Part shown: one piece after another, positions 1-19,051 of the stretch
Layout of the letters: each line of letters opens with the position of its first letter
How positions within the stretch are numbered: the stretch's first letter is position 1
Source of the DNA: a virus
Length of the DNA stretch: 21,170 nucleotides
Direction: 5' to 3' (one strand)
IMG/VR virus record: IMGVR_UViG_3300007276_000378
Location: 1 to 21,170 of that record
Notes under the pieces: generated by a model
The model's database searches: none
The model's input: the letters and a program-made list of their open reading frames with translations, nothing else
Told to the model about the DNA's origin: nothing
Program-made: the position numbers and the translations under genes

Positions 1-2993
1 ATGCGGATGCAGCCCAGGGTGATGCTACGACGGCTATCGGCGCGTCCATCGACGCCATTAACGATGCCGCTGCTGCTCAAGGGACCGCCAACACCGCTGT
101 CACCGATGCTGCTACGGCGGACGGCAAGGCCGTCGCCGCGCAGGGTGACGCTACCCAGGCTCTCTCTGACGCTGCCAACGCTCTGACTGCGGCCCAGCTT
201 GCTGTGTTGCCTGCCGAGGTCAACGCCAACGTGACGGCCATCTCTGGCGGGGCTATCACTACTGGCACTGTTGATGCCAACCGTCTGTCGGCGGTTGACA
301 TTCGGGCACGCTGGCTGGAGGCTGGCAAGATCGACACGATTGACCTCGTAGCCGACTCGGTGACTGGCGACGAGATTTATGCGGAGTCACACATCGTGGT
401 GGGTGGCGACGACGACAACAAGATCAGCCTGATCGGTTCATCGGCCCCCGAGACGACAATGATTGCAGTGACCACCACATGGGAGGCTGGATGGGCCGAC
501 CTGATCTCAACATGGTCCGTCACTCACGCTTTGCCTGCCACGGATGGCGACTGGCAGGTTAACGACGGCAGCGGGCCGCATGCGCCTAGCAGCAACTCGC
601 TGCTTCCACTGCCGCTCCCAGGTGTGCCCGCCGCACCCGCTTTGCAGGGCGCTTCGAACCAGATGGGAACCGAGAGCGCGGGCACTGGCATGGACGGCAC
701 GGCTACCGACTCGGCCCTCAACTTCATCACATACTTGCCGCCTGGCCTCGCTGTCGGGGCTTACGGCTTCTGGTCCAAGGGTGGCAACACCAACGGGCAG
801 GGCCTATATCTCCGCTCTGACGGCGCAGACAACTATGAAGTGATCTTCACACACAACAACAGTTCCACCACAGACCCAGGCTACTGTTCGGCTGCGGTCA
901 CTCCTGGCACGCACATGATCGGCGCGGCATTCGACGGCGACATCATCGGTTCGAATGCGTATCTTTACGTCGATGGCAAACTTGCCGATTCGGCGGTGAC
1001 GACCAGAACAGTTACCAACGGCACTGGCAGCCCCGAGGTCGGCGCGTACAATGTCCACGAACAGTCCCCAGACGGGCAGGCCGCGAAGCTTGATGGCACG
1101 GGCATTGTCATGGGCATGTTCCTTTGGACCAAGGACGGCTCAGGGTGGTTGACCAACGAGACCGACACACTGTTCCAACGTGCCTACGGCTACTTCTTCG
1201 GACACCTCGAAGCACCGTTCTACGCTGACGCTTCGGGCCGTGTCTCTCTCGGGCGGGGCGCGATCCAGTACGACCCTGACACCAGCACAACGACCTTTGA
1301 GGGCGTTGTTGCCGCTGACGCTTTCGAGGTGTTTGATGCTGGTTCCCGCATCTTCGCTGTCGAGGGCAACGATCAGGCCAACACTGGCTACGACACTATG
1401 CGGTTCGAATCGTCGCTGGGTTCGTTCCCGTTGACGTGGACGATTGACTGGGCGCAGGAGAACGACGACGTATTTGATCCGTCTTGGTTCTCTATCGGCA
1501 ACTGGTCCACCGTGTCGGGCACTGCTGACGGCAACTTTACCAACATGTATTCGGGTATCGGCTGGGTGTACAACTCGGACAGCAACTCGGCAAGGTGGAC
1601 GGCATCGTCGGCCACTTACATTGACCTGGGTGAGAGCCTGGGGACGGGGTACGGTCACGTCCAGCTCAAGACTGGGGCCGTGAACTGGACGTTGTACGAT
1701 CCGTCGAACCCTGCGACGCTTCCGTACATCCAAACCTCGGCCACGACCCGCGGCGCTGACGGCAGCGTGACGGAGCCTGCCTACTCTTTCGCGGACGACC
1801 CAAACACGGGCATGTATCGCTACAGCAGCGACCACATCGGCTGGTCCGCTGGCGGCTACCAAATGATGGTGATGAACACGGATGGCACCTACTTTTACGA
1901 CCACACCAGCACCGCCAACTATCTGAACATTCACGCCGACGCTAACTATGGTCGGATCACGACATCAGAAAACTGGTTCTATTTCAATAAAGGTCTCAGA
2001 GTGGACACGGGCCAAGTCAGTTCGTATAACGAACCCCTGTACTTGGGCGTCGATGGCATCACGATGGTGACGATTAATAACGACAATAACGTCGCTGGCA
2101 TGGTGGTCTACCAGAACTACGCCAGCCCAATCGGTGAGGGCATTGACGCGGCCATAGTCATTCGCACTAAGAATGCCAACCTGATTACGGGCGAAGTGGC
2201 TGGCCTGGCGATGTGGACCCAGTATTCCACCGACCGACACGTCCACCAGCGCGTCTACCACGGTACGGGCGATGTCCTCACCTACCGCAACTGGGAGAAC
2301 ACCGCATGGGTCGGTTTGCAGGCGTTGTCGTTCGCTGTCCAGTCGACCATCAAGTCGAAAGATAGGGTCCGCACGGCACGCGACGAACGGGGTCTGCTTG
2401 ACTTCGCTGTCGCAGGGCCACGCAAGATGGCGTTCAGCCAGCACCGCAAGGTGCGGCCCGTCTTGTTCGACAACAAGTATGGCGAGTACCTCACCGAATG
2501 GGCGGGATGTACAGGCCACTCAGTCCGCGACCACGCCAACGAAGACCCCAGGGACGAGCACGACAAGAAGTGGACCGAACCTGTATTCCACGAAACCCGA
2601 GAAGAATGCTTTGAGGCCGACTGTAAAGGTGGGGACAACACCCGCAAGATTCAACACCATTGCGACGACTACATATGCGGCGGCACGAAGGAGCGTCCCT
2701 GCGACCTCGTTTCCCGCCACGTCAACCGCGTCGGTTTGATCGCTGAAGAGATCGAAGAGATTTGGCCTCGGGCAGTCACCCAAGACATGTACGGTGACGA
2801 GAAGGGCATTGACTACTCTGTCATCGTCACCGAGCTACTCAACACCGTAACCCACTTGTTGGAGGACCGCGACGAGATGCGTGACCGTGCGGCGGCAGCC
2901 ATCGTTGCTCGACGGTCGGCCGAGAAGCGGCTCGACGCTCTCGAAGCGCAAGTCGCAGAACTGATGGGGGACAGGAAGACCAATAGGCGATGA
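1..2993 (+). CDS. tail fibre / receptor-binding protein with C-terminal S74 chaperone (5' end outside window)
   Basis: The reading frame is open from base 3, so the start lies upstream; a GTG at 204 is internal. The visible order is an Ala/Asp-rich helical stalk (bases 3-200, AAQGDAT repeated), then a LamG/concanavalin-like region (about 560-1200, with FWSKGG and YLYVDGKL), then beta-rich shaft repeats. The fibre signature PAYSFADDPNTGMYRY is near 1780-1830. The end (about 2310-2880) is a peptidase S74 intramolecular chaperone, which trims itself after trimer folding. The expected Ser and Lys with S-x4-K spacing are in STIKSK (Ser at 2343, Lys at 2358), followed by GLIAEEIEEIWP and GIDYSVIVTELL. 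A coiled coil closes the protein, as is usual in this family. Odd points are a Cys/His-rich insertion at 2508-2702 and the position directly before terminase. The family call is firm; the receptor is unknown. Confidence 0.9.
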   Translation, partial: ADAAQGDATTAIGASIDAINDAAAAQGTANTAVTDAATADGKAVAAQGDATQALSDAANALTAAQLAVLPAEVNANVTAISGGAITTGTVDANRLSAVDIRARWLEAGKIDTIDLVADSVTGDEIYAESHIVVGGDDDNKISLIGSSAPETTMIAVTTTWEAGWADLISTWSVTHALPATDGDWQVNDGSGPHAPSSNSLLPLPLPGVPAAPALQGASNQMGTESAGTGMDGTATDSALNFITYLPPGLAVGAYGFWSKGGNTNGQGLYLRSDGADNYEVIFTHNNSSTTDPGYCSAAVTPGTHMIGAAFDGDIIGSNAYLYVDGKLADSAVTTRTVTNGTGSPEVGAYNVHEQSPDGQAAKLDGTGIVMGMFLWTKDGSGWLTNETDTLFQRAYGYFFGHLEAPFYADASGRVSLGRGAIQYDPDTSTTTFEGVVAADAFEVFDAGSRIFAVEGNDQANTGYDTMRFESSLGSFPLTWTIDWAQENDDVFDPSWFSIGNWSTVSGTADGNFTNMYSGIGWVYNSDSNSARWTASSATYIDLGESLGTGYGHVQLKTGAVNWTLYDPSNPATLPYIQTSATTRGADGSVTEPAYSFADDPNTGMYRYSSDHIGWSAGGYQMMVMNTDGTYFYDHTSTANYLNIHADANYGRITTSENWFYFNKGLRVDTGQVSSYNEPLYLGVDGITMVTINNDNNVAGMVVYQNYASPIGEGIDAAIVIRTKNANLITGEVAGLAMWTQYSTDRHVHQRVYHGTGDVLTYRNWENTAWVGLQALSFAVQSTIKSKDRVRTARDERGLLDFAVAGPRKMAFSQHRKVRPVLFDNKYGEYLTEWAGCTGHSVRDHANEDPRDEHDKKWTEPVFHETREECFEADCKGGDNTRKIQHHCDDYICGGTKERPCDLVSRHVNRVGLIAEEIEEIWPRAVTQDMYGDEKGIDYSVIVTELLNTVTHLLEDRDEMRDRAAAAIVARRSAEKRLDALEAQVAELMGDRKTNRR
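2966..2978 (+). promoter_or_regulatory. G(n)ACAAGA-type start-associated repeat, degenerate copy
   Basis: GGGGGACAGGAAG lies inside the last codons of the fibre gene, 20 bp (from GACA) before the terminase ATG. It differs from the other copies by one base (ACAGG for ACAAG). It includes AGGAAG, which could serve as the ribosome binding site. It may be chance, because it is coding. Confidence 0.35.
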
Positions 2994-4612
2994 CCGAAAC
3001 CAGCGAGTTCTCCCAACAAGAAATCGAGATGGCACTCATCCTTCGGAAGTGTGCCCCCGACTGGGAAACCAGCAGCCTCGAAGAAAAGCTCGAAGGGTTC
3101 ATGTTCTTCTGTGAACACTTCGGACACATCAAGCACCCGTCCGAAGGCATGATCCCCTTCAAGCTGCGGCCAGCCCAAAAGGAGACAGTCGAATGCTGGC
3201 TGGATGAACGGTACTCGATCGTGCTCAAAGCGCGACAGGTCGGGTTCTCCACCCTCGTATCCATCTTCTGTTTCTGGTTGACGTTCTTCTACCCTGACCG
3301 CCACATCATTATGCTGTCCCGCACGGAGCGCGAATCAGCGAAGCTGCTTTCGCACTCCAAATACCTGTACAACGCTCTACCCGAGTGGATGAAACATGTT
3401 GGGCCAGTCGTACAGTTCACGCAGACCCGCTGCTCGATGTCGAACAACTCGGCACTCGAATCCATGCCGTCCGCTAACGACCCTGCCCGTGGCTCCACCG
3501 CGTTCCTTATCGTGGTCGACGAGATCGCGTTCATCCCGAACGCCGATGACGCCTGGGCGTCCATCGAGCCAGTGGTCGACGTCGGCGGTTCGTGTATCAT
3601 GCTGTCCACCGCATACGGTGAAGGCAACCTGTTCCACAAAATGTGGGTCGGGTCACAGACTGGCACCAACCAGTTCAAAGGCTTATTCTTCCCCTGGCAC
3701 GCTTCCGACCGCGACCAGGAATGGTACGACAAGAAGAAAGCCGAACTGCCCGCATGGCAGTTGGCCCAAGAGTACCCCGACAATCCCGAGGAAGCGTTCC
3801 TCAAATCGGGGCGGCCTGTGTTCGACCACGACGCCATGCGTGACATCATCACGTCGGAACCGTACCGTGGGCGGATCGTCAAGTCGCCTGATGGGCCTTT
3901 CGAGTTCGAGGACGACGGCGGGCCGCTGGCTGTCTGGGAGCATCCGAAGGCTGACGCGGTCTATGTAATCGGGGCTGACGTTGCGATGGGCCTGGCTCAC
4001 GGCGACTTCTCGTCGGCTCACGTCATTGACGCTAAAAGCGGCAAGGTCGTGGCCGAATGGTGGGGCAAGGTGGAACCAGACCTGTTTGGGACGCACATCC
4101 TCAACATGTTGGGCCGCTACTACAACGAAGCGTTGCTGGGTGTGGAGAACAACAACCAGGGGCTGGTCACTGTCACCGCTTTGAAGCGGGTCCAGTATCC
4201 CAACCTGTATCGTGCGCGTGGGGAAGAGAACAAGCGTGGCACTGTGAAGCGTACCGACACTTACGGGTTTTCGACGAACAAGAAGTCGAAGCCGTTGATG
4301 ATCGGGGAGCTGGCGGGTGCGATCCGCGACAAGGCTATCACCATCGAGTCCGAGGCGACCATTGCAGAGCTTCGCACCTACGTTCGTGACAACAGTGGCG
4401 GAACTCACGGTTCCCCGCACGACGACAGGGTCATGTCTTTGGCGATCACAGTCCAGATGGTGAAGTGGTGTTATCTGCCAGAGTTTCAGGGTGCGGCTCC
4501 GAAGCCTGGGCCTGGGACGTGGGGCTATAACTTGGAGAAAATGTACGCTGAACCGAAAAAGGCGAAGAAAGTGGACCTTATCGGCCAGCATTCGTTCAAA
4601 ATGGTCCGATAA
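2990..4612 (+). CDS. terL: terminase large subunit (packaging ATPase/nuclease)
   Basis: This 540-residue protein is the DNA-packaging motor, which pumps and cuts concatemeric DNA at the portal. The N-terminal ATPase has a Walker A variant LKARQVGFST (79-88), a Walker B LIVVDEIA with D177/E178, and a coupling motif LSTAYGEG (205-212). The C-terminal RNase H-like nuclease has its acidic residues in VIGADVAMG (D330), LLGVENNNQG (E386) and GSPHDDRVMSLAI (D478/D479). Length is normal for the family. The start ATG overlaps the fibre stop (ATGA), suggesting coupled translation; GGGGGACAGGAAG lies 20 bp upstream. No small terminase subunit is adjacent, so it must be outside the window, highly diverged or absent. 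Confidence 0.97.
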   Translation: MTETSEFSQQEIEMALILRKCAPDWETSSLEEKLEGFMFFCEHFGHIKHPSEGMIPFKLRPAQKETVECWLDERYSIVLKARQVGFSTLVSIFCFWLTFFYPDRHIIMLSRTERESAKLLSHSKYLYNALPEWMKHVGPVVQFTQTRCSMSNNSALESMPSANDPARGSTAFLIVVDEIAFIPNADDAWASIEPVVDVGGSCIMLSTAYGEGNLFHKMWVGSQTGTNQFKGLFFPWHASDRDQEWYDKKKAELPAWQLAQEYPDNPEEAFLKSGRPVFDHDAMRDIITSEPYRGRIVKSPDGPFEFEDDGGPLAVWEHPKADAVYVIGADVAMGLAHGDFSSAHVIDAKSGKVVAEWWGKVEPDLFGTHILNMLGRYYNEALLGVENNNQGLVTVTALKRVQYPNLYRARGEENKRGTVKRTDTYGFSTNKKSKPLMIGELAGAIRDKAITIESEATIAELRTYVRDNSGGTHGSPHDDRVMSLAITVQMVKWCYLPEFQGAAPKPGPGTWGYNLEKMYAEPKKAKKVDLIGQHSFKMVR

Positions 4613-4617
4613 CGGGT

Positions 4618-4633
4618 GGGGGGGGACAAGAAT
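4618..4633 (+). promoter_or_regulatory. G(n)ACAAGA start-associated repeat
   Basis: A run of eight G followed by ACAAGAATG begins a few bases after the terminase stop. The GGGGG end is 6 nt from the ATG at 4632, a workable Shine-Dalgarno distance if G-U pairing is allowed. The sequence GACAAGAATG is shared exactly with the copy before the scaffold gene. Confidence 0.65.
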
Positions 4634-4880
4634 GCTAAGTAGTAGTATGTTTAAGACTTGCGAGTGCGGAAAAGAGTTCACTGAGGACCAGTCCTCTGGT
4701 GCGACCTGTTATCGTTGCAAGCTGGACGGCCTGATGGTCAACTGGGTGGGCGGCGGAGGCTACGGGCGTGAAGCCTTCCATAGTGGCACCGTCAAGGAGC
4801 ACGTCGACTCCCAGTTGGCCTCGGCCGCAGCGAATGGTACGAGGGTAGAGAAGGTTCCCGAGAGAGCCGAGCTGATCTAG
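4632..4880 (+). CDS. small zinc-ribbon-like phage protein
   Basis: The product has 82 residues from ATG 4632, or 77 from ATG 4647. The N-terminus has CECG and, 12 residues on, CYRC, a CxC...CxxC set suited to one zinc ion. These are followed by a Gly-rich GGGGYGREAFH stretch and a polar tail. From memory, similar short Cys-ribbon proteins follow terminase in many actinobacteriophages; their function is not known. The open frame extends upstream into terminase, but that part has no coding merit. ATG 4632 has the G-run at 6 nt; ATG 4647 gives a protein beginning MFKTCECG, which looks more natural. Terminase-associated DNA binding is possible but unproven. Confidence 0.75.
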   Translation: MLSSSMFKTCECGKEFTEDQSSGATCYRCKLDGLMVNWVGGGGYGREAFHSGTVKEHVDSQLASAAANGTRVEKVPERAELI

Positions 4881-4881
4881 T

Positions 4882-5223
4882 ATGAATGCCATCCAAGAAC
4901 TAGGCTACTGGGTGTTTTGCATCAACGTAGCTTACACTATCGTCTTCTGGACGTCCGCCTGGACGCTGATGGAACGGCGGCGCGGCATCTATGTCGGATC
5001 GCGCCGAACGCCCTGGGCTAAGGTGGGCGGCTTGTGTCTCGCTACCGTTGGCCTCCTCACGTTGTCCATTTCGTTCCTGCCCGAAACTTGGCCTGTAAAA
5101 ATCTACACTTACGTTACCCCGTCTTTCATCCTTATCGGAACAGCATCCCTGACGGCGACGATCCGCCGCGAACGGCAGTTGGGCGTGATAGCGACCGAGG
5201 CGATTCGGAGGGAACTTGAATGA
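4882..5223 (+). CDS. small integral membrane protein, three predicted TM segments
   Basis: This 113-residue protein has hydrophobic segments at about 4-27, 47-68 and 74-94. They are separated by a basic loop (MERRRGIYVGSRRTPW), and the charged tail ends EAIRRELE. It starts 1 bp after the stop of the Zn-ribbon gene with no clear ribosome binding site, so coupling is likely. It is the first of three consecutive membrane proteins, and the group looks like a lysis or membrane cassette. A holin or holin regulator is possible, but I do not recognise the family. Confidence 0.75.
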   Translation: MNAIQELGYWVFCINVAYTIVFWTSAWTLMERRRGIYVGSRRTPWAKVGGLCLATVGLLTLSISFLPETWPVKIYTYVTPSFILIGTASLTATIRRERQLGVIATEAIRRELE

Positions 5224-5558
5224 CTCTCCCAGTAGCCATCGTGACGGCGGTGATTTCGCTGCTCACGATCATTGGCGGCGGACTCTGGGGCTTTAAGCGC
5301 AACAACATTTCGGGGGCCAAGGAAGTCACCGAATCAGCCCTGCAGCTCATCAAGCCGCAACACGACCGCATCGCACAGTTGACCACTTCGGTCGATTTGA
5401 TGGCGGAATCCATCAGGGTGTTGCAATTCCAGATCACCGAACTTGAACTTCATATCACTTCCCTGTCCGACCAGATTGTAGACTTGGGGCATGTCCCCAT
5501 AACTTCTTATCGTCGGCCACGACCGACAACCCCACACCCCCATAGCGAGGACCGATAA
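5220..5558 (+). CDS. membrane-anchored coiled-coil protein (spanin-like or holin-partner architecture)
   Basis: The product has 112 residues. One N-terminal TM segment lies at about 3-25 (AIVTAVISLLTIIGGGLWGF). A long amphipathic helix follows at about 36-90 with Leu/Ile heptads (IRVLQFQITELELHITSL), and the tail is Pro/Arg/His-rich. The start overlaps the previous stop (ATGA). The layout matches i-spanins such as Rz, but an actinobacterial host without a proteobacterial-type outer membrane makes a classical spanin doubtful. Small membrane coiled-coil proteins next to holins are also common in actinophages. The function is inferred only from architecture and neighbours. Confidence 0.75.
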   Translation: MTLPVAIVTAVISLLTIIGGGLWGFKRNNISGAKEVTESALQLIKPQHDRIAQLTTSVDLMAESIRVLQFQITELELHITSLSDQIVDLGHVPITSYRRPRPTTPHPHSEDR

Positions 5559-5797
5559 TGGAAACCAGGACTATCACCCGAATCGTCAAGCGCCACATCC
5601 AGGTCGCAGCCAAAGCCTACGTCGCGGCCATCATTCCTGTGCTCGCCTCCATTGTCTTGGCGGTCACTGATGTTACTGACATCGACTTCCGTACTGCTGG
5701 CCTAACTCTCCTGGCTGCCTCGACGCAGTGGGCGGGCGTGTATTACACGGCCAACTACAAGACGAAGCTCGAAGACCTGGCTGGCAAGGAAGCCTGA
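5558..5797 (+). CDS. putative holin (two TM segments, r1t-like)
   Basis: This 79-residue protein has a basic N-terminus, TM1 at about 20-39 (AYVAAIIPVLASIVLAVTDV), a short acidic turn, and TM2 at about 47-66 ending GVYYTANYKT. The pattern KAYVAA...TD...AGVYYTAN resembles r1t-type holins of actinobacterial phages, which make lethal membrane holes that release the endolysin. It overlaps the upstream stop (TAATG) and the portal start (TGATG). It is unusual in lying between terminase and portal, 13 kb from the amidase. Holin is the likeliest role; other small membrane proteins could look the same. Confidence 0.7.
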   Translation: METRTITRIVKRHIQVAAKAYVAAIIPVLASIVLAVTDVTDIDFRTAGLTLLAASTQWAGVYYTANYKTKLEDLAGKEA

Positions 5798-7668
5798 TGG
5801 CCCGTCCGACGAAGCTCAATACGCTGAAGCGGTATCAGGGCGAACTGGTCCGAGGACGCAAGCACCGCAAGGACGGTGACCGCGAGGCCAAGTGGGGTCG
5901 CATGGTCGACTTGTACGAGGGCAACCATCACCACGGTGAGGGTACGTCCGACCGTATGGTTGTGAACCGCGCGTTCAAAACGAAGAACGTCATCTCCCCT
6001 TCGGTCGCTTTGCGTAACCCGAAGTTTATGGTGAAGGCCCGTCTGCCTGAGAACGCAGCCCAGGCGCTGCTGACTACCGACATTCTCAACTATGTGTGGC
6101 AGTCGAACCGTTACAAGGCCGAGTTCCGTTTGGCAGTGGACGACGATTTGGTCGTCGGCCACGGCTGGCTGAAGGTCGGCTACAAGTTCGCGAAGCCCGT
6201 CGAGGTTAAGTCGACCGAAGAGGACGCGGCGATGGATGTCGGTACTGAGCCTGGCGTCGATGATCGAGAAGACAAGGAAGGCAACGTCGAGCATGAGAAG
6301 TATGATGCGGATGATGAACGGGCATTCGTCGAGCGAATCTCCATGTTCGATATGTTCGTTGATCCTGACGCAAGGTCTTTGGGTGAGGCCCGCTGGATTG
6401 CTCAACGGGTACGCCGCCCTGTGGCGGACGTTAAGGTCGACTCCCGATACATTCCTAGCCATCGTAAGATGGCGGCTACTACGTCCGCTGACCAGTGGAC
6501 TGACGAGCGTGAGGAGGTTAGCGGAACTAATGGTGTCTCTAAGGGATTCTGTGAGGTCTGGGAGTTTTACGATCTTCGCGAGAACACCGTCTGCACAATA
6601 TTGGGCGGGTATGAAAAAGGATTCCTGATTGCCCCGACGAAGATGCCGTATACTTTTGGGCATCCGTTCATCATGCTCCGCAACTATGAGGTGTGTGACA
6701 AGTTTTATCCGATGGGTGAGCTTGAGTCGATCGAGGCGTTGCAGCAGGAGTTGAACAAGACTCGCACCGAGCAGATGGAGCATCGTCGCGGCAACCAGCG
6801 CAAGTATCTTGCGATGGAGGACGCTTTGGACTCGGATGCGTGGGAGGCTCTGCAGTCGAACACAGACGGCGAGGTTGTGAAGGTTAAGCCGCAGTATTCG
6901 TTGTCGGAGGCTGTCCAGTTGATGCCGACGCACACTATCTCTGGTGACGCTTACAACATGTCTGACATCATTGATGCCGACATTGACGACATTACGGGTG
7001 TGACCGATTATGCTCAGACGTCGATCCGTCGTACCGCTACTGAGGCGGCGATGATTCAGGATCAGTCGAACGCACGGTCGGCTGACAAGCTGTCGAAGAT
7101 TGAGGACACTCTCGCTCTGGTTGGCGAGCGGTTGATCCAGTTGATGCAGCAGTACATGACTGGTAAGCAGACGGCCCGTATTGTCGGGTCGGATTCGTCT
7201 CCGATCTGGCTTGAGTATGACAAGCACATGATTGAGGGCCAGTTTGACTTTGAGGTCGAGGGTGGTTCTACTCAGCCGATGAATGAGTCTTCGCGCCGTC
7301 AGGCTGCGTTGCAGTTCTCGGATGCGATGATTCCGTTCATTGACCGCGAGGTCGTTGATCCGATGCCTGTCGCTATGAAGCTTTTGGAAGATTTTGGGGT
7401 TCGTAACCCTTCGATTTTCTTGGCGCAGCAGGCACCAGAAGAAGAGCCTCTCCCTGAACAGGGACAGGAGCTTGGCGGGGGAGATCCCTCGGCTCTGGGC
7501 ATGCCGCCTGAGATGGCGGGTATGCCGCCTGAGATGGCGGCTATGCTTGGGGGCGAGGCTCCGCTTCCGCCAGAAGGGCTTGAGCAGGACATGTCGGCTA
7601 TTGAGGGCATCCCTCCAGAGCTGATGTCTCGACTCAATATTGAGGCTTCTCCCGCCCAGCAATTCTAA
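5797..7668 (+). CDS. portal protein
   Basis: This 623-residue protein forms the ring at the capsid vertex through which DNA is packaged and ejected. Portal-like features are the N-terminal NHHHGEGTSDRMVVNRAF, the helical ISPSVALRNPKFMVK, and the wing-region motif FDMFVDPDARSLGEARWIA. These are followed by the stem/crown region (FGHPFIMLRNYEV, then ESIEALQQELNKTRTEQ). A highly acidic linker lies at about 140-175. The C-terminus is Pro/Met/Gly-rich, with a perfect amino-acid repeat MPPEMA (see 7501-7542). The start was chosen at the TGATG overlap with the holin candidate; the longer open frame upstream is not supported. Position after terminase and before scaffold fits. Confidence 0.92.
   Translation: MARPTKLNTLKRYQGELVRGRKHRKDGDREAKWGRMVDLYEGNHHHGEGTSDRMVVNRAFKTKNVISPSVALRNPKFMVKARLPENAAQALLTTDILNYVWQSNRYKAEFRLAVDDDLVVGHGWLKVGYKFAKPVEVKSTEEDAAMDVGTEPGVDDREDKEGNVEHEKYDADDERAFVERISMFDMFVDPDARSLGEARWIAQRVRRPVADVKVDSRYIPSHRKMAATTSADQWTDEREEVSGTNGVSKGFCEVWEFYDLRENTVCTILGGYEKGFLIAPTKMPYTFGHPFIMLRNYEVCDKFYPMGELESIEALQQELNKTRTEQMEHRRGNQRKYLAMEDALDSDAWEALQSNTDGEVVKVKPQYSLSEAVQLMPTHTISGDAYNMSDIIDADIDDITGVTDYAQTSIRRTATEAAMIQDQSNARSADKLSKIEDTLALVGERLIQLMQQYMTGKQTARIVGSDSSPIWLEYDKHMIEGQFDFEVEGGSTQPMNESSRRQAALQFSDAMIPFIDREVVDPMPVAMKLLEDFGVRNPSIFLAQQAPEEEPLPEQGQELGGGDPSALGMPPEMAGMPPEMAAMLGGEAPLPPEGLEQDMSAIEGIPPELMSRLNIEASPAQQF
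7501..7542 (+). repeat. 21-bp tandem repeat (2 copies) in portal C-terminus
   Basis: Two 21-bp units (7501-7521, 7522-7542) differ at one base and encode MPPEMAG and MPPEMAA. It keeps the frame and extends a disordered Met/Pro-rich tail. Confidence 0.9.
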
Positions 7669-7686
7669 GGGGGGGGGACAAGAATG
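7669..7686 (+). promoter_or_regulatory. G(n)ACAAGA start-associated repeat with nine-G run
   Basis: Nine G followed by ACAAGAATG begins directly after the portal stop codon. The nearest ATG (7684) opens only an 18-codon reading frame; the scaffold start is 46 bp further on. This copy has the longest G run of the set. Confidence 0.65.
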
Positions 7687-7740
7687 TTAATGTATGAAGA
7701 ACAACCGACCGAAAAGGACTCTTTGAGCAATGACAAGTGA
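7684..7740 (+). CDS. possible 18-residue leader peptide before scaffold
   Basis: ATG 7684 follows the G-run motif at the same 6-nt spacing as the Zn-ribbon start. It encodes an 18-residue acidic peptide beginning MLMYEEQPTEK. Its stop (7738-7740) lies 8 bp inside the scaffold gene, in another frame, so ribosomes finishing here could re-start at 7730. No family is known. It may be non-coding space; the argument is only the motif and the overlap. Confidence 0.3.
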   Translation: MLMYEEQPTEKDSLSNDK

Positions 7741-8566: not shown

Positions 8567-8580
8567 TATCTAGCACCTTG

Positions 8581-8590
8581 AAAGGGTGAT
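8581..8590 (+). promoter_or_regulatory. strong ribosome binding site of the major capsid gene
   Basis: AAAGGGTGAT ends 5 nt before ATG 8596; GGTGAT is a perfect complement to the 3' end of 16S rRNA (anti-SD region). This is the only gene gap over 9 bp in the structural operon without the G(n)ACAAGA repeat. Confidence 0.7.
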
Positions 8591-8595
8591 TCATT

Positions 8596-9594: not shown

Positions 9595-9629
9595 GTTAGG
9601 GTTTACGCTAACATCGTTACAAAGGTAGC

Positions 9630-9655
9630 GGGGAGGGGGCGCAAGCCCTCTCCCC
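9630..9655 (+). terminator. hairpin terminator after the major capsid gene
   Basis: An 11-bp stem GGGGAGGGGGC / GCCCTCTCCCC (one G-U pair) encloses a GCAA (GNRA) tetraloop and is followed by TTT. It lies 36 bp after the capsid stop. The short T run suggests partial termination, lowering expression of the tail genes relative to the capsid, as T7 T-phi does after gene 10. Confidence 0.8.
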
Positions 9656-9667
9656 TTTGCCAGTGCA

Positions 9668-9681
9668 GGGGACAAGAAAGG
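9668..9681 (+). promoter_or_regulatory. G(n)ACAAGA start-associated repeat
   Basis: GGGGACAAGAAAGG lies 13 bp after the capsid terminator and 19 bp (from GACA) before ATG 9690. GACAAGAAAGG is identical in the copy at 12967. AAAGG, or the AAAGGG further on, may be the true ribosome binding site. Confidence 0.65.
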
Positions 9682-9689
9682 TAAAGGGT

Positions 9690-10612: not shown

Positions 10613-12234
10613 TGGCTAACCGTATCCAGGCTCTCAACTTGCAAGACTTTTCTGGCGGGTTGAACTTTCGGCGTTCCGAGTTTACTTTGGGTCCGACTGA
10701 GGGTGCGGACATGTTGAACGTCGAGGTTGTCGAGGGTGGTGTCCGTACCCGCAGGGGCTGGGAGCGTTGGAATGATGCGCCGATCACTGTCGCAACCTGG
10801 AACCCTCGGGTCGCGTTTCTGCATGAGGGGTCGTCTGGTTTGGACTCGGTCATTGTCCGCAATGAGGGTGATGACACTTTGTATTGGTCGTCGAACGGTA
10901 CGTTCGCTGACCTGACTCATACGGCTGGGTCGGCTTTCACGGCCACTATGGCCGACTTTGCTCCTTGGGGCGACGACTTGTACATTGTGCGTGGCGGTTC
11001 GGCTGCACCTGCGGTGTGGAATGGTGTGTCGGCTGACTGCACGCTGCTTCTGTCGACGCCTGGCGCGCAGGCTTTCTCTGACGACTACACGGTCCCTGTC
11101 ACTGGCGGGTTCGTTGAGGCGGACTTCACGACGGCCCACGGTGGCCGTACTTGGGTGGCGGCGACGACTGAGGACGGTGTGTCGCATCCTCACCGTGTCC
11201 GTTGGTCGCATCCGAATGTTCCTGACGCTTGGGCGTCATACGATTACGTCGACATTTTGGAGGGTGGTGGCCCGATCACGGGTATCGTCCCGATGCAGGA
11301 CCATCTGCTGGTGTTTAAGGCTTCGTCGGTGTGGGCGATCTTCGGTTACGACGGCCCGTCGCAGCAGTTGATTAACGTGTCCCGCACGAAGGGTGCAAGG
11401 TCGACTCAGGTCATTGCCCGTTCGGAGTCGGCGTGCTATTTCATGTCGATGCCTGACGGCGTGTTCCGTATCGCTGACGGTACGGCGGCCCAGGAAGTTT
11501 CGTATGCGTTGCGTCCGATGTTGTCGTCGGGCGACTTCGTTTCGGGTTTGGCTGACGAGCAGTGGCTCGGCTGGGTCAATAACCGTCTGTGGTGGTCGGT
11601 GCCTTACGACGATGTGGGTGTCGCTACGGAGGCGACTGTCACGTTTGTTTTCGACCCTTCGGTCGGCCAGTACGGTTCGTGGACCAAGTTTCAGGGCGGC
11701 GACGGCGGCACGCTTGGCCCGTTCGCTCAGGGCGGCTACGCTCAGGGTTCGACAGCTTCGCTGGGCTTCGCCCGCAACTCTGCCGATGTGGTTTTGTTGG
11801 ACATCAAGGACCAGGCGGTCGATGACATCTCGGGTTCCTCGGAGCCGTTCGGCACACGCTACACGACGGGCTGGCTGAACGCTGGCACCATTGATCTCAA
11901 GAAGCGTTGGAAGCGTCCGACGTTTGTGTCTTTGGATGGCGGCGAAGATTACCGTTTCCAGGTTTCTGTGCGCGCCGATTACACGTCTGGTCGGGTGACC
12001 CGCAAGTTTGGTGTCGATGTCAACACGGCGGCCGACGGTTCCCGTTACGGCGACGGCACCGCATACGGTGACGGCTCCGTCTACTCGGTCGGTTTCGACG
12101 ACGAGATGCAACTCAAGCGCGGATCGTCCTTGGGGACAATGGCGGCCACACAGCTACAAATCGACGGGGAGCCTGGCATTGCCTGGGGACTCGGCGCAAT
12201 CGTACTCAAGTACCGATCACGAAGGATGAGCTGA
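10612..12234 (+). CDS. tail hub / nozzle-like protein (tail-tube B type)
   Basis: The product has 540 residues. It starts with LNLQDFSGGLNFRRSEFTLGPTE and GGVRTRRGWERW, a hallmark of podovirus and related proteins that begin 'x-x-F-S-G-G-L-N...', then 'N-x-x-x-x-x-G-G-x-x-x-R-x-G'. The rest is beta-rich with repeated 'V-x-W-S...P' elements (HRVRWSHPNVPDAW, NNRLWWSVPY, VTFVFDPSVGQYGSW), suggesting beta-propeller blades as in the nozzle of short-tailed phages. The end is a beta sandwich (KKRWKRPTFVSLDGG). It is likely the distal tube that contacts the cell and gates ejection. It overlaps the adaptor (TGATG) and is followed 1 bp later by a fibre gene. Confidence 0.75.
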   Translation: MANRIQALNLQDFSGGLNFRRSEFTLGPTEGADMLNVEVVEGGVRTRRGWERWNDAPITVATWNPRVAFLHEGSSGLDSVIVRNEGDDTLYWSSNGTFADLTHTAGSAFTATMADFAPWGDDLYIVRGGSAAPAVWNGVSADCTLLLSTPGAQAFSDDYTVPVTGGFVEADFTTAHGGRTWVAATTEDGVSHPHRVRWSHPNVPDAWASYDYVDILEGGGPITGIVPMQDHLLVFKASSVWAIFGYDGPSQQLINVSRTKGARSTQVIARSESACYFMSMPDGVFRIADGTAAQEVSYALRPMLSSGDFVSGLADEQWLGWVNNRLWWSVPYDDVGVATEATVTFVFDPSVGQYGSWTKFQGGDGGTLGPFAQGGYAQGSTASLGFARNSADVVLLDIKDQAVDDISGSSEPFGTRYTTGWLNAGTIDLKKRWKRPTFVSLDGGEDYRFQVSVRADYTSGRVTRKFGVDVNTAADGSRYGDGTAYGDGSVYSVGFDDEMQLKRGSSLGTMAATQLQIDGEPGIAWGLGAIVLKYRSRRMS

Positions 12235-12235
12235 C

Positions 12236-12958: not shown

Positions 12959-12966
12959 TCCCCTTA

Positions 12967-12982
12967 GGGGGGGACAAGAAAG
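12967..12982 (+). promoter_or_regulatory. G(n)ACAAGA start-associated repeat with seven-G run
   Basis: Seven G then ACAAGAAAGG lies 8 bp after the short-fibre stop, 20 bp (from GACA) before ATG 12993. AAAGG is 9 nt from the start. CCCCTTA just before the G run could fold back on it (CCCC/GGGG, 3-nt loop). Confidence 0.65.
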
Positions 12983-12992
12983 GCTATATGTA

Positions 12993-13427
12993 ATGGCTAT
13001 CGACCAATCACGCTACACGCAGCGACGTAGCGACGTAAACCAGGATCACCTGTCCAAGCAGGCCGCGAACACCCGCGGCCGTTTCTTGGCGCAGCAGCGC
13101 GGAAACCGTCAGACGTCCGATACTACTCGGACGTTCGGTCGGTCGCATGAGCCATTCGTTTCCAACCATGCCCGACGCGGTCTGACTGGCGGGGGTGTCC
13201 GTTCGGGTGCGTTCCAGAACGCTTTGCGGCAGCGGACGGGCGACCATGTCCGCAAGATGGGCCGCCAGGCGGGCGATCAGGCAGCAGAGTTGCGCCAGTA
13301 CGATTTGAACGCGTCGAACATCGACCGTCACCGCGATGACCAGTTGCGGGCCATTCAGGAAGACCGCCAGCGTGAGATCGCTATGGCTGCTTTAAACTTG
13401 CGGGCCTTGAAGCCCCTTTACGGATAG
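12993..13427 (+). CDS. basic putative internal virion protein
   Basis: This 144-residue, Arg/Gln-rich protein begins MAIDQSRYTQRRSDVNQDH. Its centre is basic and Gly-rich (SNHARRGLTGGGVRSGAF), and the C-terminal half is a long charged helix (QAAELRQYDLNASNIDRHRDDQLRAI by position 95-122). It lies at the head of a block of four virion-like genes that occupies the place of the ejection proteins in podoviruses. I recognise no family. Charge and Gln content would suit packaging with DNA. ATG 12993 was chosen because it follows the repeat motif and AAAGG; the frame upstream overlaps the fibre gene and is rejected. The start context GTAATGGCT recurs at 14324. Confidence 0.7.
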   Translation: MAIDQSRYTQRRSDVNQDHLSKQAANTRGRFLAQQRGNRQTSDTTRTFGRSHEPFVSNHARRGLTGGGVRSGAFQNALRQRTGDHVRKMGRQAGDQAAELRQYDLNASNIDRHRDDQLRAIQEDRQREIAMAALNLRALKPLYG

Positions 13428-13436
13428 GACAAGATC
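13427..13436 (+). promoter_or_regulatory. G(n)ACAAGA start-associated repeat, short-G copy
   Basis: GGACAAGATC begins on the last base of the upstream stop codon and ends at ATG 13437. Only two G are present; AGGA at about 7 nt can act as ribosome binding site. Confidence 0.5.
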
Positions 13437-14318
13437 ATGGCTGATGACTGGCGAACGAGGCTCGACTACCGCCCCAACACTGTTGGCGGCGGGGCGAGCC
13501 AAACAAGCAGGGGTGGAAACCACCTTCAGCGCGCCTACACCCGCGGCACGACTATCGGTAAGGGAAACCTGCCCTCCACGATGGGTCAGGCGACCAACGC
13601 TGGGAACCTGCAAAACCTTCTCAACAACTCGGGTGCCGAGAACCCTTACGGCGATCCCACCACTACGCCCCCACCCCCAGGACCAGGCGGCAGCCCGAGC
13701 GGCGGCGGCTACGGCGGCGGCGGCGGACAGTCCGCTAAAGCTCAGGCGCTCAAAATGTCACAAGGCTTGCAGGCACTCCTCGCCTCGGGACGCTTCGGTG
13801 CCCGCGACGTTTCGGGCGACACGGCACGCATCAACTCGGGTGTGTCCGCCGACCAGGCGTCACGCCAGGCCGCCTACCAGGCTTTGACCGACACGATTAA
13901 CAACCAGGCCAACCCGTACCGCGATGTCGAGCTGACTCAGGCACGGACACTTGACCCGCGGCTCGCAGCGATGCTGCGATCGCAGGGTGGAGATGTTGGG
14001 GCTTACGAGGCAGAGCTTGGTTTGGCGAACACACTTGCTGGGCAGGGCGCTGACGCTGACCAACGTTTCTTGCGGTCGATTGCTGCTGGTCGCGACGCCC
14101 AGAAGGCTGATTCGTTGCAGGCGACTGCCGAGGCTTCGGAGTATGGTCGTGGCGAGATCGCTGCGGCTGGGACGGCTGCCAAGGCGGCTCTGGCTGAGAA
14201 GGCCCGTCTTGAGAATAAGGCGAAGGCCGATCAGCAGATGCAAATTATTCTCCAGTTGATTCAGGCGAACGCTTCGGCGGGCGTCGATACGGATCTCTCT
14301 AAGTACGGATTGGGCTGA
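13437..14318 (+). CDS. putative internal virion/ejection protein (Gly-rich then helical)
   Basis: The product has 293 residues. The N-terminal 100 residues are disordered (Arg, Asn and Gly-rich), with a Pro run and GGYGGGGGQ at about 75-98. After about 100 it becomes helical and Ala/Gln-rich (LQALLASGRFGARDVSG, ELTQARTLDPRLAAMLRSQG, AAAGTAAKAALAEKARLENK). Size, Ala/Gln helices and position resemble gp14-class ejection proteins of T7-like phages, which form a channel for DNA; this is an analogy, not recognised homology. The stop is 5 bp before the next start. Confidence 0.65.
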   Translation: MADDWRTRLDYRPNTVGGGASQTSRGGNHLQRAYTRGTTIGKGNLPSTMGQATNAGNLQNLLNNSGAENPYGDPTTTPPPPGPGGSPSGGGYGGGGGQSAKAQALKMSQGLQALLASGRFGARDVSGDTARINSGVSADQASRQAAYQALTDTINNQANPYRDVELTQARTLDPRLAAMLRSQGGDVGAYEAELGLANTLAGQGADADQRFLRSIAAGRDAQKADSLQATAEASEYGRGEIAAAGTAAKAALAEKARLENKAKADQQMQIILQLIQANASAGVDTDLSKYGLG

Positions 14319-14323
14319 TTGTA

Positions 14324-15835
14324 ATGGCTGATGACAACGGGGCGATGAGTCCTGAAGATATCTTTCGTCTCATTTCGTTGGGTAACACTGGCTTGGATGT
14401 CGGGGCGATTGAGCGTTCCGAGTTGATTAACTTCAAGGACATTGAAGGTCTGCTTGATTCGGCATTGTTCCAGCAGAATGCTGGCGCGACGAACCCGTTG
14501 GCGTTTCAGCCTACGACGACGTATGAGACTGTTGCGCTCCCGCAGCGGCCTTTGTTCCAGCAGTACAGTCAGGCTCCGAAGGGGTCGATTGAGAACACGA
14601 TTGCGCTGTTCATTGAGGAGAACCCTCATTCGCCGTCGAAGGTTTTGTCGGAGATGGAGGCGTTCCTCACGTCTGGTCAGTATCAAACGGCGAACCCGAC
14701 GTTCGCTGATCGACTGAAAAACGACGCTACGAACGGCGATGTGCTCGCTAAGGAGTTGGCGGGCATCAAGGGCCAGATTGACGACATCTCGGCTGAGACA
14801 CGTTCTTACAACACCGAGTACGCGGCTCTCGAACCTGAGGCGCAGGCGGCTGCGGACGATGGCTTGCCGTCGTACCAGAAGGCTACGGAGACTCCTTCGG
14901 AGGCTGCGAAGCGGTACACTGATCGCGGGTTGTCGACGCCTGATGACCGTTACGAGCAGTCCGACTTCTACGACTACGGTCCCGATGGTGGCAGGGCTGC
15001 CGCCGACGAGGCCAAAGCGCTGTTCGACGTGATCCGTCGCCGTCGTTCGGGTGTCGATGATGTGGCTTCCGCGCCGTGGGTTGACCCCCGAGAGAGGGTT
15101 GTGGAACCGTTCAATCCTCGCAGCTCCAGCCGCTTGCCGCAGTGGGGCGTGCAGGCTGATGCGATTGAGGAGGTTCGCCGTCGGGCCAGCGAGGCCCCGA
15201 GCCAGGAGGTTCGCCGTCAGGCCAGCGAGGCCCCGAGCCAGAACGTCATGCCCCCACTCGACCCGTCGACGTTGGACCCGATGGGCACGCCTGACGGGCT
15301 GCCAACCTTTGGCGGGCCGCGCGGACCAGGAGCACCAGACGGTCGAGGTCGTGTGCGTGGCGACGAGGATCAGCGCATTGACTCGGTCGAGGCTGCCCGC
15401 TGGGCTCGGAAGAAGGTTTGGGATCGGGAGTTGACTGACGAGGAAAAAGCCGACCGTTCCCGTATCGCCCAGTCGGCACGGTTGTCCGCTGTTGCCAACC
15501 AGACGTTTGACACAACCTTCTCGGACTGGGCGGAGCAGATTGGTGAAGGCAACCGATCCAACTTCCAGACTGGCGAGCAGTACAACAACGAAGACAACGT
15601 GCTGGCTCAAATGTTGATCGCGCGGGCGAACGCCAACTTCGATCAGGAGAACTCGGCGAGGAAGCTTGCTGGGCGCAACGCTGTCGGCGCGACGCCTCTG
15701 TCGGACCAGCTTCGTGCAGCCACTGGTGGCGCACCGAACATTGCACCGAAGATGCCTTCCCGTTTGGGTGGGCGTAGTGGTGGCGCATCGTCGGCCCTGG
15801 CGGCTCGACTCGCCAAACTGCAGGGTGGTCGCTGA
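14324..15835 (+). CDS. putative virion protein of unknown family
   Basis: This 503-residue protein has a structured-looking N-terminal 150 residues (SPEDIFRLISLGNTGLDVGA; VLSEMEAFLTSGQYQ), a charged helical middle, and a low-complexity region at about 260-340 rich in Arg, Pro and Gly. That region carries a 12-residue tandem repeat (EVRRRASEAPSQ / EVRRQASEAPSQ). A helical C-terminal part follows, with a basic Gly-rich tail (RLGGRSGGASSALAARLAKL). No enzymatic motif was found; no lysozyme or transglycosylase signature could be identified. It is coupled to the next gene by TGATG. By position it is the third member of the ejection-protein-like block. GTAATGGCT at the start matches 12993. Confidence 0.65.
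   Translation: MADDNGAMSPEDIFRLISLGNTGLDVGAIERSELINFKDIEGLLDSALFQQNAGATNPLAFQPTTTYETVALPQRPLFQQYSQAPKGSIENTIALFIEENPHSPSKVLSEMEAFLTSGQYQTANPTFADRLKNDATNGDVLAKELAGIKGQIDDISAETRSYNTEYAALEPEAQAAADDGLPSYQKATETPSEAAKRYTDRGLSTPDDRYEQSDFYDYGPDGGRAAADEAKALFDVIRRRRSGVDDVASAPWVDPRERVVEPFNPRSSSRLPQWGVQADAIEEVRRRASEAPSQEVRRQASEAPSQNVMPPLDPSTLDPMGTPDGLPTFGGPRGPGAPDGRGRVRGDEDQRIDSVEAARWARKKVWDRELTDEEKADRSRIAQSARLSAVANQTFDTTFSDWAEQIGEGNRSNFQTGEQYNNEDNVLAQMLIARANANFDQENSARKLAGRNAVGATPLSDQLRAATGGAPNIAPKMPSRLGGRSGGASSALAARLAKLQGGR
15170..15241 (+). repeat. 36-bp in-frame tandem repeat (2 copies)
   Basis: Two 36-bp units (15170-15205, 15206-15241) are nearly identical, differing at one base (CGG/CAG, Arg/Gln). 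They encode a 12-residue unit in a disordered linker and look like a recent duplication. Confidence 0.9.
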
Positions 15836-18800
15836 TGGTCGACTTCATGGCGGGACGCCGAAACCAGATCGGACAGTCCAGTCCAGCAGTGAGGACGTTC
15901 GACTTGGAAGGCGCGCTACGAGCGCAGGCCCAGTCGTCTGCCAAGACGGCAAGGAACGACGCCGCAAGGCCGCGTCGGGGTTCAGCTATGGAAACGGCAC
16001 TGAACGCTCTCGGTCCAGCGCCATCGGACGGCGAGGACTCTAAGAGCATTTGGGATAAGGCGCTCGGCCTCGTCACAGACGTCAGCCTGGGCCGCGGGAC
16101 GATCGGCAAGATGACAGCCCCGATCAACCCTTGGGCACAGTACCGCATTTTCAAGGAGGACGTCCCTGGCGGTGCCAAGGCGGAAACGGTCGCGCTGGAT
16201 GCTATCGACATGGGGAAGCGCGCTTCTGTGCTCGCCCTCGATGAAGCGTCGAAGCACACCCCTGACTGGGCGCAGGACGCCATGTTGTACAACCCGCTGA
16301 CATTCATGCAGGCAGCGTATGCGAAGTGGGGGCATGACGAGGAGGCTTCTGCTGGCAGGTCTGTCGGTGAGCGTCTGTCTGATCCCCGTTACGGGTTTGG
16401 GGACATCACGAAGTCGACTGGCAACCAGTTGGCTGACAATGTGATCGGGTTCGTTGGCGATGTCGCCCTCGACCCCTCCACCTATGTGACGTTGGGTTCC
16501 ACGAAGTTCGCTGGCGCTGCAGGCCGTATCGCTGCCGCTAACCGTTTAGCGAATGCGAACACAGCAGCTAAGGCGGCGGGTCGGGCGTTGCCGTTTGCTC
16601 AGGAGGGCATTGAGAAGGTCGCGAAGTATGGTGTGTCTCATGCCGATGAGGCGATGCGGGCGCAGCTCAAGTTGGGCGATGATGGTATCAGGTTCATGGG
16701 GGCGCGTGTCCCTGGGACGGGTAAGGTTGCTGATACGACTGGCAAGGCTTTGTCCGAGGTTCGCGCCGATATTATGCAGTCGAATGCTGGCAAGGCTGTT
16801 TCGTGGATGCGTTCCGATAAGGGGTTGAAGCATTCTTTGGACATTATTGCTGGCCGTGTCGACGGCAACGTCGATGAGGCTTTGGGGTTCTTTTCGTCGA
16901 ACGATGTGGCTCGCGCTGCGAGCGGTAACGTTTTGATGGAGACTCGCGACGAGGTTCTCGGCAAACAGTTGCGCGGCATGAAGGGTGAGGGCCGCATTGC
17001 TGCGACCCACGCGTTGGAGGCGGGCGTCGATCTTGACGATGCCCACACTCGCACCCGTGCGATCTTCGATACGTTGTTCGAGTTGGGTCAGTTGGCTGGC
17101 ACGACGGGCCAGAAGCTTCGCGCGAACTATGTCCCGCACCATTTGACCCGCAGAGGCAAGGCGGCTTTGCAGGGCGTGGAGCGTGTCACGAAGCGGACGA
17201 CGCACAAGGTCAACACGGCCCAGTCGCGGGGCGCTTCGTTCTCTCGCGAGTTCAAGAAGGGCGACTACTATGTGCCCAATCCGAATGGCGGCAAGCACAT
17301 CAGGGTCACGTTGGAGGATGCGACGATCGAGGAGATCAACGAGAAGATTGGCGGCATCACTGGTGTCAAGATTTTCGAGGACGACTTGGGTATCATTCTG
17401 GAACGGTCGATCCGTGAGGCTTCGCAGGAGATCGGTATATCTGCACAGTTGCAGTCGTTGCAGAAAACCCATCCTCAGTTCGTGAAGGCTTACGACGAGG
17501 TTATGGCTGACCATCGGGTTCCGAACACGATGGACAGGCAGTTGTGGAAGGGGTCGCCGAAGACGCCTGGCGGCCTGACTACTGACCCTGGCACGCTGTT
17601 CACGGCTACGAAGGCGCAGCGGAACAACGCGAGCCGCCGTGCGAAGTCTGTTCAGGACGCTGTCGATTCTGGCTGGGACTCTGATGTCAACTCGGCGTTC
17701 ATGAAGGCCGCCTCGTCGGGCAGGCTCGGGCCGCACGTCGAGGTTTTGGTCGAGGACGGTTTCGACAAGATCGTTTCGCAGATGAGGGCTGCGGGCCAGG
17801 AAGTGTTAGCTACCCCGCAGATGCGGGAGTCGTTCACGCGTGTCGCGAAGGCGGCGGAAGATCCTGCGTTCGGCAGGGTGCTGGCAGCGTACATGGACTT
17901 CACCCGTCTGTTCAAGGGGTACGCTACGATGACTCCTGGGTTCCATATCCGTAACGGTATGTCAGCCCTGTTTATGAACCTGTCTGACGGTGTGACGTTG
18001 CAGGATCATATCGAGGCTTACAGGTTGATGAACAAGGTGAAGAAGGGCGGCAAGGCCGCTATCGCTGACATGACGCCAGAGGAACAGATGGCTCTGTCTA
18101 CCGCTGTCGGCTCTGGTGTGCATGGCAACCTTTCGCAGACCGAGGTCCGCGTGTCTCAGTCTGGTCGTGGCGGCATTGACGCTTTGACCGACAAGGGTGG
18201 CGGCTACGAAAAGGTGGGCAACGTACTCAACAAGTTGGACGAGAACGGTCTGACACGTCTGCACAAGGACTTCGGCACGATGAACGTCGAGGGTCCGATG
18301 CGTCTGGCTGTCGGCTTGAACACGGTGAAGCGGGGCGTCAAGGACGGCGTCGATGTGGCCGATTTGTTGTCTGAGGGTTTGGCGAGGAACACACGTCTGC
18401 ACTTCGACTATTCGCAGCAGTCGCACCTCGACACTGTAGCGAAGTCTTTCATCCCGTTTTGGACGTTCATGTCCCGCAACCTTCCTTTGCAGATGCAGCA
18501 ACAGTTCCAGCGGCCACGCGCTTACGCCAGGTATGCGGCGTTGCGTGACAACTTCGACCTGTCACAAGAGGGCGATATGCCTTCTTGGCTGTCGTCGACG
18601 GGTTCCGCGATGGTGGGCGGCGGCTGGCATGTCGCTCCCGACATGCCGTTCGCCGACATGGCTGGTGACGCAGAGTCGTTCAAGGGGATCATGGGACCAG
18701 ACGGCGGTATCTTCAACTCGTTCAACCCTGTATTCAAGACGCCTTTCGAGCTGGTGCAGGGACGCAAAACGTTCTTGGACCGCGAGTTTCGGGATGACGA

Positions 18801-19041
18801 AAACAAATGGATGTACGCCCTCAGCTCGATGCTGCCGCCGTTGGCTCGCGCCGACCAACTGTCGGGTGGTAACATCACGAACTTCGTCGAGGGGGACGAT
18901 ATCGAGCTGGACGGCACCAAGTCGTTGAACTCGCTCCTCGGCAACCTCGGTATCCCTGTCAAGCACCGCGACCCTGACGAGCTTCGCCTCAAAGCTCTGA
19001 ACGAGCAACTGCGGGCCTTGGCCGCCCAGCAGGGCAACTAA
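15835..19041 (+). CDS. large internal virion (DNA-ejection-like) protein
   Basis: This 1068-residue protein is the largest in the window and the last of the block. Recognisable patterns are VIGFVGDVALDPSTYVTLG (203-221), PGFHIRNGMSALFMNLSDG (from about 702) and FIPFWTFMSRNLPLQ (from residue 872). From memory, similar 'F-x-x-R-N' and 'PFWTW-x-x-x-N-x-P-L-Q' patterns occur in very large phage virion proteins and large polyvalent proteins. The middle is helical and charged. No peptidase or transglycosylase motif could be seen. T7 gp16 (1318 residues) holds the equivalent place and forms the trans-envelope channel; a similar role is inferred. The start overlaps the upstream stop (TGATG); a second ATG lies at 15847. 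Confidence 0.75.
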   Translation: MVDFMAGRRNQIGQSSPAVRTFDLEGALRAQAQSSAKTARNDAARPRRGSAMETALNALGPAPSDGEDSKSIWDKALGLVTDVSLGRGTIGKMTAPINPWAQYRIFKEDVPGGAKAETVALDAIDMGKRASVLALDEASKHTPDWAQDAMLYNPLTFMQAAYAKWGHDEEASAGRSVGERLSDPRYGFGDITKSTGNQLADNVIGFVGDVALDPSTYVTLGSTKFAGAAGRIAAANRLANANTAAKAAGRALPFAQEGIEKVAKYGVSHADEAMRAQLKLGDDGIRFMGARVPGTGKVADTTGKALSEVRADIMQSNAGKAVSWMRSDKGLKHSLDIIAGRVDGNVDEALGFFSSNDVARAASGNVLMETRDEVLGKQLRGMKGEGRIAATHALEAGVDLDDAHTRTRAIFDTLFELGQLAGTTGQKLRANYVPHHLTRRGKAALQGVERVTKRTTHKVNTAQSRGASFSREFKKGDYYVPNPNGGKHIRVTLEDATIEEINEKIGGITGVKIFEDDLGIILERSIREASQEIGISAQLQSLQKTHPQFVKAYDEVMADHRVPNTMDRQLWKGSPKTPGGLTTDPGTLFTATKAQRNNASRRAKSVQDAVDSGWDSDVNSAFMKAASSGRLGPHVEVLVEDGFDKIVSQMRAAGQEVLATPQMRESFTRVAKAAEDPAFGRVLAAYMDFTRLFKGYATMTPGFHIRNGMSALFMNLSDGVTLQDHIEAYRLMNKVKKGGKAAIADMTPEEQMALSTAVGSGVHGNLSQTEVRVSQSGRGGIDALTDKGGGYEKVGNVLNKLDENGLTRLHKDFGTMNVEGPMRLAVGLNTVKRGVKDGVDVADLLSEGLARNTRLHFDYSQQSHLDTVAKSFIPFWTFMSRNLPLQMQQQFQRPRAYARYAALRDNFDLSQEGDMPSWLSSTGSAMVGGGWHVAPDMPFADMAGDAESFKGIMGPDGGIFNSFNPVFKTPFELVQGRKTFLDREFRDDENKWMYALSSMLPPLARADQLSGGNITNFVEGDDIELDGTKSLNSLLGNLGIPVKHRDPDELRLKALNEQLRALAAQQGN

Positions 19042-19051
19042 GGGGACAAGA
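19042..19051 (+). promoter_or_regulatory. G(n)ACAAGA start-associated repeat
   Basis: GGGGACAAGA follows the upstream TAA directly, 13 bp (from GACA) before ATG 19058. TAAGGGG can pair with the anti-SD if one G-U pair is allowed, but the spacing of 12 nt is long. Confidence 0.65.

Follow-up and report, generated by a model that had tools for sequence, protein, structure and literature searches.

We wanted to understand what a short G-rich repeat does in the structural operon of a phage, where it recurs at gene junctions on one strand only. The DNA analyzed (from here on, the window) is a virus record of 21,170 bases, itself a fragment, with genes for a P22/SU10-type portal, a terminase, a scaffold, a major head protein, a tail and lysis-type functions. 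A first-pass annotation of this sequence had listed seven copies of a G-run followed by ACA[AG]GA, and all seven are present on the + strand, at 2966, 4618, 7669, 9668, 12967, 13427, and 19042 or a few bases off. The pattern GGGGACARGA occurs six times on the + strand of the window and never on the - strand (mean 0.08 and maximum 2 in 500 shuffles), and the shorter GGACARGA eight times on + and never on - (mean 1.05, maximum 5 in 500 shuffles), the eighth match lying at 7462 within the portal gene. The motif is real and far above chance, and six of the seven listed copies form one group. These copies and the features around them are as follows.

2966..2989, + strand: element 1, GGGGGACAGGAAGACCAATAGGCG; abuts ATG 2990 of the large terminase gene and shares bases with the end of the 929-aa ORF before it
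4618..4646, + strand: element 2, G8-ACAAGAATGCTAAGTAGTAGT; followed by ATG 4647 of a small putative zinc-ribbon ORF
7669..7695, + strand: element 3, G9-ACAAGAATGTTAATGTAT; precedes the leader hairpin of the scaffold gene
7696..7724, + strand: scaffold leader hairpin, stem GAAGAA/CTCTTT, core CAACC...GGA; scaffold ATG 7730
9624..9661, + strand: terminator-like hairpin after the major capsid gene, strong (fold -32.9 kcal/mol, z -4.7)
9668..9689, + strand: element 4, GGGGACAAGAAAGGTAAAGGGT; ATG 9690
12967..12992, + strand: element 5, G7-ACAAGAAAGGCTATATGTA; ATG 12993
13427..13436, + strand: look-alike, GGACAAGATC; no second block, junction motif-free in relatives
19042..19063, + strand: element 6, GGGGACAAGATAGCTAATGGCT; lysis-type ORF with in-frame ATGs at 19058 and 19064

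The copy that falls outside the group is that at 13427 (GGACAAGATCATGG), which lacks the second block described below; relatives have no motif at this junction, and one of them (G002) has a plain AGGA there. This copy is probably an ordinary Shine-Dalgarno look-alike. The earlier statement that the motif is not just a Shine-Dalgarno holds for the six true copies, Shine-Dalgarnos being few at start-adjacent sites, and probably fails for 13427, where we accept that reading. The genes without the element, namely the capsid gene and the gene at 13437, have a Shine-Dalgarno; the capsid gene had already been singled out as the exception, and it indeed combines a normal Shine-Dalgarno with the absence of the motif. 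The distance from motif to start had been given as 7-22 bp, and 53 bp for the scaffold gene, and this scatter shrinks when the distance is measured from the first G of GGGGACA: it is 23, 25, 22, and 23 bp for the copies whose first G lies at 2967, 4622, 9668, and 12970. For the element at 19042 it is 22 bp, provided that translation begins at the second in-frame ATG (19064).

Relatives were gathered through the capsid protein, and about 150 further loci were added from terminase and portal alignments; all IMG/VR relatives are metagenomic and possibly incomplete, and the lists of sites were collected partly by eye. Comparison with these sequences revealed that the conserved unit is longer than the first-pass annotation had seen, with the consensus GGGGACA-N7-CTATAG-GTGATG. 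The motif is thus one half of a two-part element, in which G[GT]NAC[AG] is followed after 7-8 bp by a CTATA-like block, and the string ACAAGA is specific to the phage of the window, only ACA or ACG being general. The first block varies by clade: it reads GGGGACA in the clade of the window and GTAACG or GTTACA/GTGACA at the same junctions in sister clades. The sequence 5' of the G-run is not conserved, and the G-run itself is 4 to 9 bases long among the copies of the window and, in close relatives, about 3 to 6 bases long at these junctions. Among 37 hand-collected start-adjacent sites, 34 have the ATG at 21-23 bp from the first block and 33 have the CTATA-like block at 12-14 from it; only five carry a Shine-Dalgarno 4-mer with normal spacing.

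Relatives with the element range down to about 40% capsid identity and from 44 to 67% GC. The unit stands at six junctions in L012 (62% capsid identity; one of the six on the remainder of its contig), at four in L065 (67% GC, about 41% capsid identity), and at five in G006 (a 43.6-kb record of 64% GC), and in the relatives of 64-67% GC the second block is no longer clearly TATA-like. BLAST of the ORFs that follow the element returned homologous genes, namely the zinc-ribbon-like ORF, the scaffold gene, and the post-capsid ORF; the ORF after element 2 has a homolog downstream of the element in about 10 relatives. Further, the junction of element 1 recurs in L008 (80% capsid identity) at 919, and that of element 5 in L006 (8441) and L009 (6336). 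The claim that the motif marks gene starts directionally is borne out by its confinement to the + strand in the window and by its presence at homologous junctions in relatives, and the comparisons of strands, positions, and relatives on which the first-pass annotation had rested its case came out in its favor: the motif is strand-biased, bound to junctions, and kept at the same junctions. The unit, its spacing, its conservation at junctions, and its clade-specific first blocks are direct observations.

The element is absent from the replication genes (- strand) of G002 and G006 and from MW202803, the nearest named phage record, and no + strand match to the sigma-70 pattern TTGACA-N16/18-TATAAT was found at any element of the window. 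An exact pattern scan of viral_contigs with GGGGACAAGANNGNTAANG gave mostly scattered single matches of mixed GC, the exception being one near-identical contig. On the - strand of MW202803.1, at 41422, 39204, and 30027, another element, CGTTTCTGA[CT]GGAAACG, which is an inverted repeat, precedes three gene starts, two of them at corresponding junctions. We also note that, in G006 (= L222), the post-capsid element at about 11774-11832 makes up the 3' arm of an inverted repeat of 14 bp, AACCCGGTCTGTCC/GGACAGACCGGGTT.

At the scaffold gene the element and the start codon are apart. In the window, counting again from the first G of GGGGACA, the 5' arm of the leader hairpin lies about 22 bp on and the start, with its own Shine-Dalgarno, 56 bp on; the stem has one A-C mismatch beside the core, and the Shine-Dalgarno AAGGA is in the 3' arm. 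Over the scaffold sites taken together, the element is 42-58 bp from the start codon, which has a separate Shine-Dalgarno. The hairpin is found at the same place in about 40 relatives with a near-invariant CAACC...GGA core, and its stem covaries, the fourth pair being A-T in 18, G-C in 10, and T-A in 3. Over the first five positions, 165 of 195 possible pairs are formed, compared with a mean of 140 and a maximum of 151 in 2000 shuffles of the 3' arm; because related sequences can exceed such shuffles, this covariation supports the hairpin and does not prove it. Of 52 non-redundant sequences, a set that includes a few chance hits, 37 carry G[GT]NAC[AG] at 24-29 bp ahead of the core of the hairpin, against about 2% expected for each from base composition. 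No Rfam match at gathering score was obtained for eight sources, nor any at E up to 1 for the scaffold hairpin of L168. The hairpin may serve translational control of the scaffold protein. A micro-ORF upstream of the scaffold gene was rejected, as its frames differ among relatives and a start codon is missing from this place in L012 and in the GTTACA clade.

A second class of sites is likewise uncoupled from the start codon. In L107, L126, L100, L176, L181, L187, L191/L195, and L213, an opposite-strand copy stands beside the first + copy and faces away from it. These divergent copies, some of which read GACTATA|GGGGGGG, are followed by a structured leader of 70-100 nt and then an ATG, mostly with AGGAG or a similar Shine-Dalgarno, so that the element lies about 100 bp from the start codon. 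Strong hairpins were seen in the divergent leaders of L181 (- strand, 6760), L187, L195 (- strand, 7207), L213, L107, L126 (- strand, 5378), L100, and L176, and L181, L187, and L195 share TAGGGGCCA[CT]C...GCGACGACAGGAG ahead of the first - strand gene. The - strand copy of G006 at 4758 is followed by about 600 bp without a clear gene. Because the element is separated from the start codon at both the scaffold and the divergent sites, which is a direct observation, we reason that it marks RNA 5' ends and not start codons.

The repeats are probably compact phage late promoters that give leaderless or near-leaderless mRNAs, judging from these sequence comparisons. A first block (G[GT]NAC[AG]; GGGGACA here) about 13 bp upstream of the CTATA-like block would direct RNA synthesis to begin about 18-23 bp from the first block. 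Where an ORF begins right at the RNA start, the mRNA would have little or no leader; the scaffold RNA would have its 5' end at the hairpin bearing the Shine-Dalgarno, and at divergent sites the RNA would open with the structured leader. From this arrangement we infer a start of RNA synthesis at that distance, leaderless mRNAs, late expression of the genes, and recognition of the first block by a factor of the phage or the host. TATA stands directly before G at the scaffold and some divergent sites, and CTATA stands about 5 bp earlier at start-adjacent sites; the RNA start point is ambiguous in this respect, differing by about 5 bp between the site types. The strand bias, the retention at homologous junctions at 80, 62, and about 40% capsid identity, the strong hairpin ahead of the post-capsid copy, and the lack of the element at the replication genes of G002 and G006 favor the promoter reading; counting against it are the blurred second block at 64-67% GC, the many junctions that have no terminator hairpin, and the negative searches for a polymerase or sigma-like factor described below.

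The first-pass annotation had offered a translation enhancer, an mRNA processing site, or a repressor/silencer site, and none of these fits best; a promoter, which was not on its list, does, as it explains the adjacent starts, the scaffold hairpin, and the divergent sites together. Processing of a long late transcript by an endonuclease that cuts at the element, leaving leaderless or hairpin-led 5' ends, would account for the directionality, the position after stop codons, the constant spacing up to the newly made 5' end, and the placement of the scaffold hairpin at that end. We nevertheless consider it unlikely as a general account: divergent copies have gene blocks pointing away on either side, an arrangement in which no transcript should reach them from upstream on their own strand, which favors promoters, and replacement of the first block clade by clade would be more usual for a factor that reads DNA. 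At junctions inside the operon, the element may still be a processing site. A signal within the mRNA that lies about 22 nt before the AUG and recruits ribosomes without a Shine-Dalgarno would fit the 22 ± 1 bp to the ATG at most start-adjacent sites and the scarcity of Shine-Dalgarnos there, and the start-associated sequences (SAS) of cluster K and EF phages are placed at ribosome sites (PMC3203893, PMC7302621); the scaffold sites, 42-58 bp from the start, and the divergent sites, about 100 bp from it, each with a Shine-Dalgarno of their own, make this quite improbable.

Being short, asymmetric, repeated, intergenic, and in a single orientation, the element also looks like a stoperator-like binding site for a repressor, silencer, or anti-terminator. 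Cluster A stoperators are asymmetric intergenic repeats that serve as repressor sites and are not tied to start codons; they share asymmetry and intergenic position with the element and differ from it in sequence and in its tie to start codons. A plain roadblock needs neither near-constant spacing to a start codon or hairpin nor a conserved second CTATA-like block, and we regard such a site as very improbable.

Terminators bear on the need for promoters within the operon. A hairpin comparable with that at 9624..9661 lies ahead of the post-capsid element in L006, L008, L010, L012, L065, and L166, and most other junctions have no terminator hairpin, so that transcription beyond them does not strictly call for additional promoters. 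The idea that a hairpin precedes every element was rejected, since only the post-capsid site is consistently strong.

We looked for a factor that might read the promoters. T7-family promoters (CACTATA|GGG) are about 23 bp long, and the element resembles them in length and, at the scaffold and some divergent sites only, in the TATA directly before G. It differs in lacking a conserved middle part and in that no T7-type polymerase was found: neither MW202803 nor any of 13 large relatives (30-44 kb, of unstated completeness) has PF00940, the T7 control being positive. A search for R-x3-K-x6/7-YG plus an HD signature found only chance matches in terminases (window, G002, G006, G007, G008, and MW202803), and no polymerase or sigma family was found among the early proteins tested. 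Sigma-54, ECF, and sigma-70 spacing was also set aside, as an RNA 5' end at or before the scaffold hairpin would be too close for a -35 block. Also considered was a late giant ORF of very variable length, assigned in G007 and G008 by position only, the copies of the window and G006 being alignable.

15835-19041, window: late giant ORF, 1068 aa
21061-28425, G006: late giant ORF, 2454 aa
8354-17824, G007: late giant ORF, 3156 aa
17863-24648, G008: late giant ORF, 2261 aa

Where tested, it gave no convincing Pfam, PHROG, or PDB match, and with no family or PDB match and no motif it was rejected as a virion polymerase. When the host was sought in genomes, the portal matched nothing, and the terminase matched two contigs, the first from an Acidimicrobiaceae MAG and the second from a Euryarchaeota MAG. 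The former, L225 (NHIM01000009.1), is a 54% terminase relative binned as Acidimicrobiaceae MAG TMED189, which is a weak hint of a host.

The element resembles known repeats without belonging to any family tested. Together with the cluster EC repeat, its closest described counterparts are the SAS and ESAS, of no known function, which come from cluster K mycobacteriophages and from Microbacterium phages of cluster EF (PMC3203893, PMC7302621). They likewise recur ahead of many gene starts as short, conserved, asymmetric sequences, mostly in one orientation, with clade-dependent sequence and occasional other-strand copies without a gene start. However, the SAS, 13 bp long, has a Shine-Dalgarno core that lies 3-7 bp from the start, whereas the block here is about 22 bp away, and cluster K SAS lie among non-structural genes, whereas the element lies among structural genes and has a second CTATA-like block. 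As first noted, it also differs in sequence: the 13-bp GGGATAGGAGCCC or GGGAAAGGACCCC is not matched at the ribosome-binding position, and the scaffold and divergent elements do not lie immediately 5' of start codons. The 18-bp repeat TAGaCTaTaGGTgTaAgC of cluster EC Microbacterium phages, whose genome encodes a sigma factor, has no known function (PMC7302621); it is, by description only, similar in being asymmetric and intergenic, in standing 22-30 bp ahead of starts, and in its CTATAGGTG-like core, and differs in that no upstream G[GT]NAC[AG] block is described and the phages are different. That compact two-part late promoters exist is shown by phage AR9, whose late promoters read AACA-N6-TA/G, the last base being the start (PMC5312081). 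They too are short, two-part, and at the extreme 5' end of late transcripts; their spacing is shorter, and AR9 has its own multisubunit polymerases, of which none was found here.

Repeats associated with gene starts have been on record from several phage clusters for more than 10 years without a function, and the start-uncoupled sites described here (the scaffold hairpin and the divergent leaders) make it possible to decide clearly between translation and transcription. It is conceivable, if rather doubtful, that a large uncultured phage family has its own undescribed transcription specificity factor or polymerase reading G[GT]NAC[AG]-N7/8-CTATA promoters, with a first block re-coded clade by clade, leaderless late mRNAs, and scaffold synthesis controlled by a conserved 5'-terminal RNA hairpin that matched no Rfam family in the searches above. 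If the promoter reading is true, it would map the promoters of a widespread environmental phage family, explain those of its genes that have no Shine-Dalgarno, and give a search image for the transcription factor.
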